This document shows, piece by piece, positions 3,260-33,632 of a stretch of DNA of 34,630 nt (position 1 is the stretch's first letter; every line of letters starts with the position of its first letter). Under the pieces are notes generated by a model. It searched no databases. It was not told where the DNA came from and saw only the letters and a list, made by a program, of their open reading frames with translations. Position numbers and translations under genes: made by a program. This stretch comes from a virus, in the IMG/VR virus record IMGVR_UViG_3300044641_003169, positions 1 through 34,630 of that record, one strand, 5' to 3'.

Positions 3260-3287
3260 TTGACATTGGGCCGGGATGGGGTAGGAT
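3260..3287 (+). promoter_or_regulatory. Rightward promoter P3
   Basis: There is a perfect TTGACA at 3260-3265, a 16-bp spacer and TAGGAT at 3282-3287. An AT-rich stretch at 3221-3254 lies upstream, with a short run (3231-3245) loosely resembling the P1/P2 box. It drives the rightward early block and is divergent from P1, with their -35 boxes about 108 bp apart. Confidence 0.8.
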
Positions 3288-3293
3288 GTGGGC

Positions 3294-3310
3294 GTGGTCG
3301 GGGCGACCAC
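3294..3310 (+). other. 5'-terminal RNA hairpin of the P3 transcript
   Basis: GTGGTCG-GGG-CGACCAC is a perfect 7-bp stem with a 3-nt loop beginning 7 nt after the P3 -10 box. The position matches that of the hairpins after P1 and P2, although the stem sequence is different. Confidence 0.7.
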
Positions 3311-3606: not shown

Positions 3607-3806
3607 TGCGCGACATGTTCTACGAGGTCACGGGTTCCTACGGGTTCGGCGCACGGGTCAACGAGCGATTCCGCACGATTGAGGAGGCCCGCGCCCTGCT
3701 CTGCAAGATGTCCAGCGGCACGATCTGGTACTTGAGCGTCATGGGTCGCATGCGCTTCGAGAATCGCAATCAGGCCATTCGCGCTGCTTTCAAGGGAGGC
3801 CGCTAA
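3606..3806 (+). CDS. Hypothetical early protein (66 aa)
   Basis: I do not recognise the family. The 66-residue product has a compact alpha/beta appearance: an FYEVTGSYGF strand, an FRTIEEARALL helix, a TIWYLSVMGR strand and an NQAIRAAFKGGR helix. The start overlaps the previous stop (TAATG) behind GGAGGC. The gene ends with the same 16-bp sequence that ends its upstream neighbour. Its place in a packed early operon suggests a small host-directed protein. Confidence 0.75.
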   Translation: MRDMFYEVTGSYGFGARVNERFRTIEEARALLCKMSSGTIWYLSVMGRMRFENRNQAIRAAFKGGR

Positions 3807-4141
3807 TGCGTAACACGATCAAGGCAACGGTTGAGGAAATCATCAACCATCACACTCGGCTCAATGGGCCGACGGAGGATCAGCGGATGCGCCAATGCGC
3901 GGAAGCGATCCAGAGCCGCGCCGGGGTTGGCCCCGCGCAACTGGAGGCCGTGCATGTCTACCTCGCAGCCTGTCGTATCCTTGAGCAGCGTCGTGCGGAG
4001 TTTGACCGCGCAGGCGACGGCATGCCCGAACTACAGGCCGAGGCCGCGCTAGACCGCGCCCACAGCGCGTGGATCGAAGCGGAGTCGCACCTGCTGCGCC
4101 TGTGCGCCAATGTGGAAGTGGAGGTCGCTCATGCGGTGTGA
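3806..4141 (+). CDS. Hypothetical early protein (111 aa)
   Basis: I do not recognise the family. The 111-residue product looks all-helical and has three cysteines but no CxxC zinc motif. The start is a TAATG overlap behind GGAGGC. The last 11 bp overlap the start of the sigma-like gene at 4131, whose ribosome binding site GGAGG lies inside this coding sequence. No membrane segment is seen. Confidence 0.75.
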   Translation: MRNTIKATVEEIINHHTRLNGPTEDQRMRQCAEAIQSRAGVGPAQLEAVHVYLAACRILEQRRAEFDRAGDGMPELQAEAALDRAHSAWIEAESHLLRLCANVEVEVAHAV

Positions 4142-4334
4142 CCGCAAGCCGAGCGTGCCGGGAACGGGCGACCGCAAGCCGCTGTGCGGCTTCACGCCCA
4201 TCCGCTCGCATCTGGAAGCCGCTAAAGCGTTGGGCATGACATCGCACCAGTTGCGGCATGCGGAGCAGAAGTTGCTGCTCAAGTTGCGCGAGGCGTTGAC
4301 CATCTACGGCTATGACCGAAAGGAGAACCGATGA
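4131..4334 (+). CDS. Sigma-region-4-like small DNA-binding protein
   Basis: The 67-residue product has a helix-turn-helix at about residues 27-55 (HLEAAKALGMTSHQLRHAEQ, then KLLLKLREAL). It closely follows the sigma70 region 4.2 pattern: a helix ending in an LGM/T turn, a recognition helix, then the conserved xALxKLR ending. It lacks all other sigma domains, so it is not a full sigma factor. Such a protein could bind the beta flap or a -35 element and alter promoter choice (inference). The start at 4131 is preferred over one 21 bp upstream because GGAGGTCGCTC precedes it. Its stop overlaps the next start (ATGA). Confidence 0.75.
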   Translation: MRCDRKPSVPGTGDRKPLCGFTPIRSHLEAAKALGMTSHQLRHAEQKLLLKLREALTIYGYDRKENR

Positions 4335-4468
4335 GCAACTTTCCGAGCGGATTCGATTCCGACTACTGGTTTGGTGATGAACCCGAGCAGGAGCCGGAGG
4401 AGGTGGACGAGGAGCCGGAGCCGCTGGACGAGCCGGAGCCTGACGCATTCCCACGGGAGGAGCCATGA
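4331..4468 (+). CDS. Acidic Glu-Pro-rich 45-aa peptide
   Basis: A 45-codon gene lies between the sigma-like and winged-helix genes and overlaps each by four bases (ATGA at both ends), behind AAAGGAG. Of 45 residues, 18 are Asp or Glu, nine are Pro and only one is basic, giving a net charge near -17. An aromatic N-terminal patch (FDSDYWFG) precedes an EPE-type repeat tail. Such strongly acidic peptides can mimic DNA or block basic surfaces, but no family is recognised and the role is unknown. Confidence 0.75.
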   Translation: MSNFPSGFDSDYWFGDEPEQEPEEVDEEPEPLDEPEPDAFPREEP

Positions 4469-4878
4469 CCTACCGCGATACGAGCCGATCCGCTTACGCG
4501 ACCGCGCAGATCGGCGAGAACGAGGAGCGCGTTCTGTCGTTCGTGAAATCCTCGGGCAGCCACGGGGCTACCTGCGACGAGGCCATCCGCACACTTGGGA
4601 TGCAGCACCAGTCTGCTTCCCCGGCGTTCACCACGCTAGAGCGCAAGGGCTGGCTCCTGCGAACCGACCGCCGCCGGACGACGGGCACGGGCAGCGCGGC
4701 AGCGGTCTACATCTACACAGAACCCGGCACTCTGTTTTCAAGTCCACGGACAGGGCGAGCCGATGGATTACGAGCCGCGATTCGTGCAGCGATTGCTGCG
4801 CGAGCATCGGGCGATTGGACAGCGTTCGATTATGCGGTAGGCGCGTTGCCTGCTGCCGAGCGCAAGAGACTGAACTAG
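4465..4878 (+). CDS. Winged-helix DNA-binding protein
   Basis: The 137-residue product carries a winged-helix domain at about residues 17-88. Helix 1 is NEERVLSFVKSSG, helix 2 is CDEAIRTLGM, the recognition helix is SASPAFTTLERKGWL, and the wing reaches AAVYIYTEPG. This is a frequent phage regulator-like fold found near early genes. The C-terminal 45 residues are helical (RAAIRAAIAARASG) and may mediate oligomers. It is a candidate regulator of the divergent promoters, but it does not resemble CI or Cro closely enough to call a repressor. The start overlaps the acidic peptide gene (ATGA) behind GGGAGGAG. Confidence 0.8.
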   Translation: MTYRDTSRSAYATAQIGENEERVLSFVKSSGSHGATCDEAIRTLGMQHQSASPAFTTLERKGWLLRTDRRRTTGTGSAAAVYIYTEPGTLFSSPRTGRADGLRAAIRAAIAARASGDWTAFDYAVGALPAAERKRLN

Positions 4879-20380: not shown

Positions 20381-21040
20381 TTAGGCCTTCTGGCCCGTGT
20401 ACTTTGCGAACAGTTGCTTGAACTTGGCGAGGTCACCAGCGGCCTCATGCACCGCACGAGCGGTCGCCACCTTGGGGTCGAGGGTTTCGCCACCCTCATC
20501 GGTCACGGTGTGCTGCGCCACGGTCGGAACATTCAGCGGCAAGCGGGCCATCGTGGCCTTCCAAAACGCGATCTTCGCGCCGGGGTTAGCAGCGTCCGAC
20601 AGTTCCTCGACCATCGAATTGCGGAACTTGCCGCAGCGGTAACCGTCGCGGATCATGGAATCGACTTCCTTGCCGAACCGCTCCAACTTCAACTGCTTCT
20701 CAAGTTCCTGCACGCGTGCGAACAGAGCCTTCGTGCTCTTGTCACCCTTGCTCATCTTGGCCTTTCCGCCGTAGGCGGCTTCCATCTCCCCGTCCTCTTC
20801 CTCTTCCTCGCCCTGATGCGAGCCGATGTCAACATGCACGCCGTCGGCGAAGTTCTCCTCGTCCTCATCGCCATCGACGGGGCCAGCGAACTCCATGCCC
20901 TCGGCGGCCATCGCCTCGGCATCAGCCTCCTCGGCCATCTTGTCCTCGTCCTCGTCAACCGCGCACTCCATAGCGGCAGCCTCCAGAGCCTTCTTGGCCT
21001 CCTCGTCGGCTTCCATCTTCTTCTTCATCTTGCTGGGCAT
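20381..21040 (-). CDS. Nested scaffold protein from an internal start
   Basis: An in-frame ATG at 21040 (Met200 of the precursor, reading MPSKMKKKMEADEE) is preceded by AAAGGAAAGAAC, a ribosome binding site as good as those of the phage's own genes. It would yield a 219-residue scaffold without the protease domain, as with lambda Nu3 inside gpC. The product is acidic and helical with a basic start, typical of scaffolds that fill the prohead and are then removed. Confidence 0.7.
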   Translation of the reverse strand: MPSKMKKKMEADEEAKKALEAAAMECAVDEDEDKMAEEADAEAMAAEGMEFAGPVDGDEDEENFADGVHVDIGSHQGEEEEEDGEMEAAYGGKAKMSKGDKSTKALFARVQELEKQLKLERFGKEVDSMIRDGYRCGKFRNSMVEELSDAANPGAKIAFWKATMARLPLNVPTVAQHTVTDEGGETLDPKVATARAVHEAAGDLAKFKQLFAKYTGQKA

Positions 21041-21637
21041 GTTCTTTCCTTTGGTTCCTGCGGACGGGACGAAGGTGTTGAGTCCTCCGCCGACGCCAAT
21101 TTCATCAAACTTTTCCTTGGAGTCAATAGAAACGCGCACCACTCCAAGCGGACGCTCAAAGACCACCTTTGAGCCGTGCTTCGTGAATCGGGTATCCGGC
21201 AGCGGCCTGCGCGGCGTATCGCGCCCGAGCAGAGCCACCTCCGACAAGTGATTGTCTTTCCAAATCTCCGCGCTGCGGCGAGGGAATGCGTTGGTCGCTA
21301 GCAGCGAATCGAACGCCTCCTTCGGCATCTCCACATCGCCGACCACATAGGCAACGCCGTTGCGCTCTTCGTAGCGGACGCTGGTGATGTCGCCGACCGC
21401 CTCGGGCCGCGTGGCCTTTCCGTCCTTCTCGTGTTCGATGACGAGTTTAGGACGCGAGCCGCGCTGGATGAACTTCCCGGTGCGTGAAACGATGTCGCGC
21501 ACCTTGCGATTGTCGTACCCCTGCATGGCCTCGTCATCGTCCGAGTCGATGGACGGATCGAAGCCCATGAACAACTCAAGGTTCTTGATACGAACCTTGC
21601 CTTCTTCGGTCTTCTCGACGGTGTGGGATGCTGGCAT
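20381..21637 (-). CDS. Prohead protease-scaffold precursor
   Basis: The 418-residue product has two parts. Residues 1-160 form a head maturation serine protease of the XkdF-like type. The probable catalytic His69 lies in KLVIEHEKDG and the probable Ser122 in FPRRSAEIWKD, followed by LSEVALLGRD and PLPDTRF. Residues 200-418 are a highly acidic, helical scaffold-like region (Glu/Asp/Ala runs, then a coiled-coil segment ARVQELEKQLKLERF). Between them lies GGGLNTFVP (183-191), identical to part of the capsid N-terminus. The ATG at 21637 comes right after the previous stop; a TTG 30 bp upstream is an alternative start. The protease would cut scaffold and perhaps capsid during maturation. Confidence 0.85.
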   Translation of the reverse strand: MPASHTVEKTEEGKVRIKNLELFMGFDPSIDSDDDEAMQGYDNRKVRDIVSRTGKFIQRGSRPKLVIEHEKDGKATRPEAVGDITSVRYEERNGVAYVVGDVEMPKEAFDSLLATNAFPRRSAEIWKDNHLSEVALLGRDTPRRPLPDTRFTKHGSKVVFERPLGVVRVSIDSKEKFDEIGVGGGLNTFVPSAGTKGKNMPSKMKKKMEADEEAKKALEAAAMECAVDEDEDKMAEEADAEAMAAEGMEFAGPVDGDEDEENFADGVHVDIGSHQGEEEEEDGEMEAAYGGKAKMSKGDKSTKALFARVQELEKQLKLERFGKEVDSMIRDGYRCGKFRNSMVEELSDAANPGAKIAFWKATMARLPLNVPTVAQHTVTDEGGETLDPKVATARAVHEAAGDLAKFKQLFAKYTGQKA

Positions 21638-21639
21638 GG

Positions 21640-22542
21640 TTATGCCCAAGTGAGACTCCAAAGGCAAACGCTTCCGGCTGGCGAGCGAGTCAACTTGAAC
21701 ACATCCGAGAAGTCGCTATCAAACTTGCCACCCTTTTCTATCGCCTTTGCAATTGCCGAGTGATATCCGCTGACATCGGTTCCGGTGTTGTTTGCATAGA
21801 GACACGATCCGGGCTGTCGCGTGATCGCAAACCGCTCCTTGCGGCCCTTGCCGAAGTAGAAGCGATCCTCGACCTTGAAGGTCGCCTTCGCGCCGGGGCG
21901 GGAGAAGCGACCATACTTCTTCACAAGTTTTGGCATCTCCACCTTCAAGTCCGCTCCGCTTGCAAGAATGGCGTTGATGTCGTTCTTGATTTTTCCAGAA
22001 TCCATGATGCTCACGGGTACACCGTGGAAATACTCATAGAACACGGTTTCCCACTTCTCGCGCACCTTTGGCTTTCGCGTAGCCATCATTTCCTTCTCGC
22101 CGAGGCGGGAGGCAAGAATCTTGCTCGCGGCTCGTCGCGCACCAGCCTCGGTCGAATACCACTTGGAATCCACGAAGCGATCATTTGCCTCTCCGGGCAC
22201 AACCTGCTTCTCCTCCTGCATCACGGTCACAACCCATCGACCGTCAGCCTGTGGGCCGCTCAATTCAACTCGCTTGCTGCCCTTTCGCGCAACGACTTCA
22301 CGCGCCATCATTTCCTTCTCGCCGGGGCGGGAGAACTTGATTGTTTCTGCGTATCGCTTCAATTGCTCCACGGGGCCATCCTTGACATTGATTGGGGATT
22401 TACCGGGTTGATGTCGATACAGCGTTCCTCCTCCCCTTTTTGCATCTACCACAATCGTGAACTTTGTTCCGTTGATGGTTGCTTCCCATCCCTCTGACAA
22501 ATCTCCCCAGCCTTGCGATTGCGTACGCGACCAATTAGCCAT
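21640..22542 (-). CDS. Tag-bearing head-region protein (300 aa)
   Basis: I do not recognise the family. The 300-residue product looks like a chain of small domains joined by repeated peptide tags. FSRPGEKEMMARE occurs near residue 71 and SRLGEKEMMATRK near 145. FSRPGAK lies near 212 and VEDRFYFGKGRKERF near 220. The first domain (about 1-68) includes WEATINGTKFTIVVDAKRG. The domain between the two EKEMMA tags resembles its counterpart in the 22535-23179 product in its ARRAASKIL or ARRVASHGYS type end. The C-terminal part includes TGTDVSGYHSAIAKAIEKGGK, reminiscent of KTR or KGG-type small folds. It lies between Mu gpF-like and protease genes, so head assembly or an internal head protein is likely. 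Confidence 0.6.
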   Translation of the reverse strand: MANWSRTQSQGWGDLSEGWEATINGTKFTIVVDAKRGGGTLYRHQPGKSPINVKDGPVEQLKRYAETIKFSRPGEKEMMAREVVARKGSKRVELSGPQADGRWVVTVMQEEKQVVPGEANDRFVDSKWYSTEAGARRAASKILASRLGEKEMMATRKPKVREKWETVFYEYFHGVPVSIMDSGKIKNDINAILASGADLKVEMPKLVKKYGRFSRPGAKATFKVEDRFYFGKGRKERFAITRQPGSCLYANNTGTDVSGYHSAIAKAIEKGGKFDSDFSDVFKLTRSPAGSVCLWSLTWA

Positions 22543-32837: not shown

Positions 32838-33632
32838 TTACTCCGTGCAATCGCATGGAATTGTTGAATCGTTGTAGTCATCAAATAGCCTCCCTTGAAT
32901 TGTGATTTGATGAAGCATGGTTGCATAGTTAGGTCGATCCTTGCGGAAGGTTCCCCCGATAAATCCCTCTTGTTCAATCCACCAACGCGCGCTTTCCGGG
33001 CTGTGTTCCATCACTCGTTCCGTTGCGGCCCGGCTCTTGAGAAAGCACAAGTCGCAATTCCCAAAAGCCTGATCGCCGTGTGGCAGGTTCAAATCGAATG
33101 CTGAATCTTTCCAGTACGCCATCACGGTTTCGCGCGTTGCCTTCGCATCCGCCAAAGGCATTTCAATGTCTCGCGTTGCATCTGCTCGCAATCGTGCTAC
33201 GCGATTTGCCTCGTCATAGCGCAGTCCGATGACGGTGGTGAACTCTTCATGTCGCTGCTTCATCCACGCGCTCATCGGCTTAACCTTGAGATCGCTGGTG
33301 CAAAACCTTGCAACTGGGTTGGGCAGATACTTTCGCTTGGCGATCAATGCCGCGAACGGCTCGCCATTTGTGCTGGCTGTTTCGCGAGTAACTTCTGCAA
33401 ATGGCGCATCTGCTCGGTATTCGATCCATGTGATCGGACACCACCTTGATTCAACCTGATGCACAAACAAAAGAGTCGCCGGATGTTCGCGACCCGTGTT
33501 TGCAAATAGCACATGCCCGCCTTCAGGAAGCGTGCCACCCCATGCGTCAAGGATCATTCGCAACATGTAGCCGCTGGTGCGTCCGCCGCTGAATGACACA
33601 TAGAACGGCGGTTCGATCTTGTATGGGTTCAT
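32838..33632 (-). CDS. PAPS reductase-like / PP-loop protein
   Basis: The 264-residue product belongs to the adenine nucleotide alpha-hydrolase fold. The PP-loop is VSFSGGRTSGYML (SGGRTS at 15-20), followed by the VLFANTGREHP strand-turn and the RFCTSDLKVKPM segment typical of phage PAPS reductase-like proteins. A C-terminal GNCDLCFLK motif with other Cys could hold an Fe-S cluster or act in sulfur transfer. Proteins of this type activate a substrate with ATP; in phages they may take part in nucleic-acid thiolation or sulfur metabolism, with no fixed role. The ATG overlaps the upstream stop and follows GGAGACACC. Confidence 0.85.
   Translation of the reverse strand: MNPYKIEPPFYVSFSGGRTSGYMLRMILDAWGGTLPEGGHVLFANTGREHPATLLFVHQVESRWCPITWIEYRADAPFAEVTRETASTNGEPFAALIAKRKYLPNPVARFCTSDLKVKPMSAWMKQRHEEFTTVIGLRYDEANRVARLRADATRDIEMPLADAKATRETVMAYWKDSAFDLNLPHGDQAFGNCDLCFLKSRAATERVMEHSPESARWWIEQEGFIGGTFRKDRPNYATMLHQITIQGRLFDDYNDSTIPCDCTE

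Follow-up and report, generated by a model that had tools for sequence, protein, structure and literature searches.

The stretch of DNA analyzed here (the window) is the complete 34,630-base uncultured virus record IMGVR_UViG_3300044641_003169, in which terminase, primosomal, Gam-like, Erf-like, and RusA-like genes are recognized among the subset of proteins that was scanned; no integrase was noticed in that subset. The long open reading frames lie mostly on the minus strand, with one plus-strand cluster at ∼3.3–6.4 kb. Inside this cluster sit a gene for a 67-residue protein with a helix-turn-helix (HTH) resembling sigma region 4.2 (4131–4334, +; HTH at approximately residues 26–55, conserved C-terminal GY motif), a gene for a 45-residue acidic, EP-rich peptide (4331–4468, +), and a gene for a 137-residue winged-helix protein (4465–4878, +) that matches phrog_1123, a family of unknown function. 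All three overlapping genes are present as the first-pass annotation had described them. A gene for a 111-residue protein (3806–4141, +), syntenic in relatives, precedes them and shares 11 nt with the sigma-like gene. Both the sigma-like/acidic and the acidic/winged-helix junctions are ATGA overlaps, with Shine-Dalgarno-like stretches ahead of 4331 (AAGGAG, within the 3′ end of the sigma-like gene) and ahead of 4465 (GGGAGGAG, within the 3′ end of the acidic gene). Because the gene ends carry these stretches, the terminal KE residues of the sigma-like protein and the REEP residues of the acidic peptide may be retained for the benefit of the following gene. Overlap is found at 8 of the 9 gene junctions read between 3346 and 6018, so the coupling of the sigma-like and acidic genes is the general style of the operon and no sign of a special pair. 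Elsewhere in the window, two 51-nt repeats that are 84% identical (1861–1911 and 2397–2447) lie close to where two minus-strand open reading frames end and carry a hairpin, GGCCACCC...GGGTGGC, and a phosphoadenosine phosphosulfate reductase-like gene is located at 32838–33632 (−; phrog_424, E 1e-47).

Searches with either seeds or a profile brought up relatives of the sigma-like protein in another 18 viral contigs. The window protein by itself gives weak MerR matches only and no match to a sigma family. Pfam Sigma70_r4 (PF04545) is matched by 8 of 11 family members with a best E-value of 1.4e-4, and the relative in contig L033 reaches 24.7 bits over profile positions 21–50 of 50, against a curated cut-off of 24.1; the other scanned members, the window's included, score below that cut-off. 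Several NCBIfam sigma models match the L033 and L018 proteins at the same HTH region, and sigma models are the best-scoring models in most members. A search of the family profile against the PDB returns mostly sigma factors as best matches, with region 4.2 of SigA/RpoD aligned over residues 26–55; the best E-value, 8e-7, is a whole-sequence value that combines two stretches, and single stretches are weaker. By sequence comparison, then, the sigma likeness is a property of the family and not of the window protein alone. The shared element is the HTH core TLEEVAxxLGLTxEQVRxxExxALxKLR, which aligns with sigma-70 region 4 over ∼30 residues. Unlike that region, the phage protein is a stand-alone 67-residue polypeptide with a C-terminal GY motif of its own. 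Region 4.1, on which docking to the β flap depends, has no match in the members shown, where alignments begin at profile position 21 or later, and only the putative region 4.2 HTH is matched. Likewise, neither the window record nor any of four relatives yielded a match to sigma region 2 (PF04542); these records may be incomplete, and 10 of 14 control genomes do match it. These results uphold the proposal of a sigma 4.2-like protein as far as the family-level HTH match, the early-type operon, and the winged-helix neighbor are concerned, and they do not extend to a full, flap-binding region 4.

In the predicted structure, two confident helices at residues 27–34 and 38–58 give an HTH, and residues 1–20 are of low confidence and contain no helix; the missing match to region 4.1 is thus a finding at sequence level. 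The top VIA-align rows are mostly sigma region 4 chains, with Z only ∼3.6, and the Foldseek E-values are above 1; the model comparisons thus favor sigma region 4, but weakly. In comparisons with window-like relatives, the sigma-like gene shows dS of 0.33–0.59 and dN of 0.013–0.057, and with dN/dS well below 1 it is under strong purifying selection. In the alignment to sigma-70, the −35 contacts R584, E585, R588, and Q589 correspond to S, H, R, and H in the window clade. These base-contact residues are only partly kept, and for this reason the ability to read a −35 element may have been lost in the window clade.

The 45-residue peptide does have a net charge of −17, as first reported, with 18 Asp or Glu residues. 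Such a charge is rare in the window: −17 or lower occurs in 29 of 27,983 frames of 45 residues, and frames at −12 or lower occur in only three places, the acidic gene, ∼20.85–21.15 kb, and ∼25 kb. The second of these (20850–21150, −), within a 428-residue open reading frame at 20381–21667, falls as low as −18 per 45 residues. A 21-nt tandem repeat at 4389–4430, within the acidic part of the peptide gene, may explain how the acidic stretch grew. Like the sigma-like gene, it behaves as a real gene, being under purifying selection within alleles (for example, dS 1.65 and dN 0.10 for L013 versus L009), and the high charge is not conserved across relatives. Two homologous alleles, both starting MSN[FY]P, fill the middle slot: an EP-rich form with charge −14 to −17 (window, L010, L011, L014, L015, and L016) and an arginine-containing form with charge −6 to −9 (L009, L012, and L013). 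Among more distant relatives, the slot holds a 40-residue EP-rich peptide of charge −7 in L018 and unrelated proteins of 83–87 residues in L017, L020, and L026. It is empty in L033, where the stop of the sigma-like gene directly overlaps the start of the winged-helix gene. The window, L015, and L016 share an identical middle protein although their flanking genes differ, which points to allele swapping. Since the middle slot is replaced, changed in charge, or empty in relatives, a role for the peptide as putative DNA-mimic partner is not supported. The first-pass annotation had suggested that the sigma-like protein and the peptide, as a working pair to be sought elsewhere, could redirect host polymerase. 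The −17 charge of the window allele speaks for that model, as does the fact that the two genes adjoin and overlap both here and in close relatives; against the replaced, arginine-containing, or missing partners and the apparent swapping of alleles, we consider it extremely improbable.

A winged-helix gene lies 3′ of the sigma-like gene on the same strand in all 50 segments with a profile match (these overlap one another and come from 19 contigs, one of them the window), and thus the sigma-like gene, wherever found, is directly upstream of the winged-helix gene, separated from it only by the middle slot where that is filled. The predicted model of the winged-helix protein has the expected order of helices and wing, and its sequence gives weak MarR-type matches. 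In L025 the winged-helix gene directly follows the homologue of the 111-residue gene with no middle gene, and the sigma-like gene is not detectable in the L025 and L052 records. Pattern scans of 84,980 bacterial and archaeal genomes returned no relatives of either the sigma-like or the winged-helix family. Isolated phages gave no DNA or winged-helix match, and the L033 sigma-like protein found matches there only at E 1 or worse. Terminase and portal gave only distant matches with mixed hosts, and hence no host is named. A search of open-access literature brought up no small phage sigma-like proteins, which is weak evidence.

Positioned to transcribe the operon is a sigma-70-type promoter, TTGACA-16-TAGGAT (3260–3287, +), followed by a leader hairpin, GTGGTC-GGGGC-GACCAC (3294–3310, +). 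Two similar modules of promoter and hairpin lie on the minus strand, spanning 3151–3099 (promoter 3151–3124) and 2365–2312 (promoter 2365–2338). Two of these three strong early promoters of the window have a TG ahead of the −10 element, as in promoters of the extended −10 kind. In the relatives, the spacer of such promoters is 16 nt long and contains a conserved box close to GCCGATRTGTGG; the hairpin, whose GGGGC loop is nearly invariant, comes 6–9 nt after the promoter. We count 28 such hairpins in 12 loci, each preceded by a promoter-like sequence. For the window the number of GGGGC-loop hairpins is 3, versus 0.03 in shuffles, a control weakened by the relatedness of the sequences, and covariation is seen in 5 of 6 stem pairs, with the paired percentage inflated by the choice of near-perfect stems. 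No Rfam family matches the window at its gathering threshold. The binding element of Q and the putative one of AlpA lie between −35 and −10 (PMC7969949), and the spacer box sits at the same place; a role for the module in antitermination is for this reason a lead rather than a result. AlpA also has a predicted winged-helix motif (PMC7969949). The likeness of the antiterminators AlpA and lambda Q to these phages is one of element position, and no homology is seen.

A tie between the sigma-like gene and one promoter class was considered and rejected. L012, L013, and L018 have the same promoter layout with TTGCAA or TTGCGC in place of TTGACA, and sigma-like proteins that are 97–99% identical occur with both kinds of −35 allele (those of L012 and L013 are near-identical to the window's). 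The GGGGC-loop hairpin was not found in L020, L021, and L026, which have the sigma-like gene, and it is kept with its promoter in L025, in which no such gene is detected. The last case also bears on the expectation that relatives lacking the pair but sharing its early expression would count against the pair: L025 has no middle gene and no detectable sigma-like gene and keeps the same divergent promoters and leader hairpins, which bears this out in part, as a comparison of sequences. That the stand-alone HTH reads the early hairpin-bearing promoters as a recognition module split from sigma, either substituting for host sigma region 4 or opposing it, we consider very unlikely.

What, then, does the 67-residue protein do? 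The reading that we favor, with a probability of about 0.5, is that of an accessory early phage regulator. The protein would bind DNA through its lone sigma-4.2-type HTH and, once bound, would probably tune how transcription starts from promoters of the phage or the host, acting outside any sigma factor and with no need of the acidic peptide. This reading builds on the observed reading frame, family, HTH similarity, purifying selection, winged-helix synteny, and variable middle slot; the early timing is suggested by the gene's position and promoter. The protein could instead dock on host RNA polymerase, compete with sigma region 4 at the β flap or the −35 element, and so shift transcription to the phage. 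Its small size and sigma-4.2 likeness are consistent with this, as are the extended −10 promoters, and small phage factors with the role so proposed are known, T4 AsiA, P23-45 gp39, and Xp10 P7, which act on sigma-4 or the flap (PMC7403470). As described there, they do not figure as imitations of the DNA-reading motif of sigma 4.2, and no tie of sequence or fold between them and the sigma-like protein is seen here. With region 4.1 unmatched, no confident helix before residue 27, and no detectable homologue in L025 and L052, the first of which keeps the same promoters, we regard docking as doubtful. A small DNA-binding protein of the MerR or excisionase type, serving genome maintenance instead of transcription and resembling sigma 4.2 by chance, would account for the weak MerR, HTH_17, and HTH_25 matches and the Cox-like excisionase matches in three members (best E 0.13). 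We judge it unlikely, given that most members score higher with sigma models than with any other and that no integrase was noticed among the scanned window proteins.

These observations indicate that gene overlap and charge are unsafe ground for inferring a functional pair. The promoter and hairpin module, although by-catch, is of greater interest than the sigma-like gene itself, and its spacer box and covarying leader hairpin provide a testable lead on transcription control in these phages. For the sigma-like gene, the finding is that a sigma-4.2-type HTH has been kept alone, under selection, in a group of uncultured phages.
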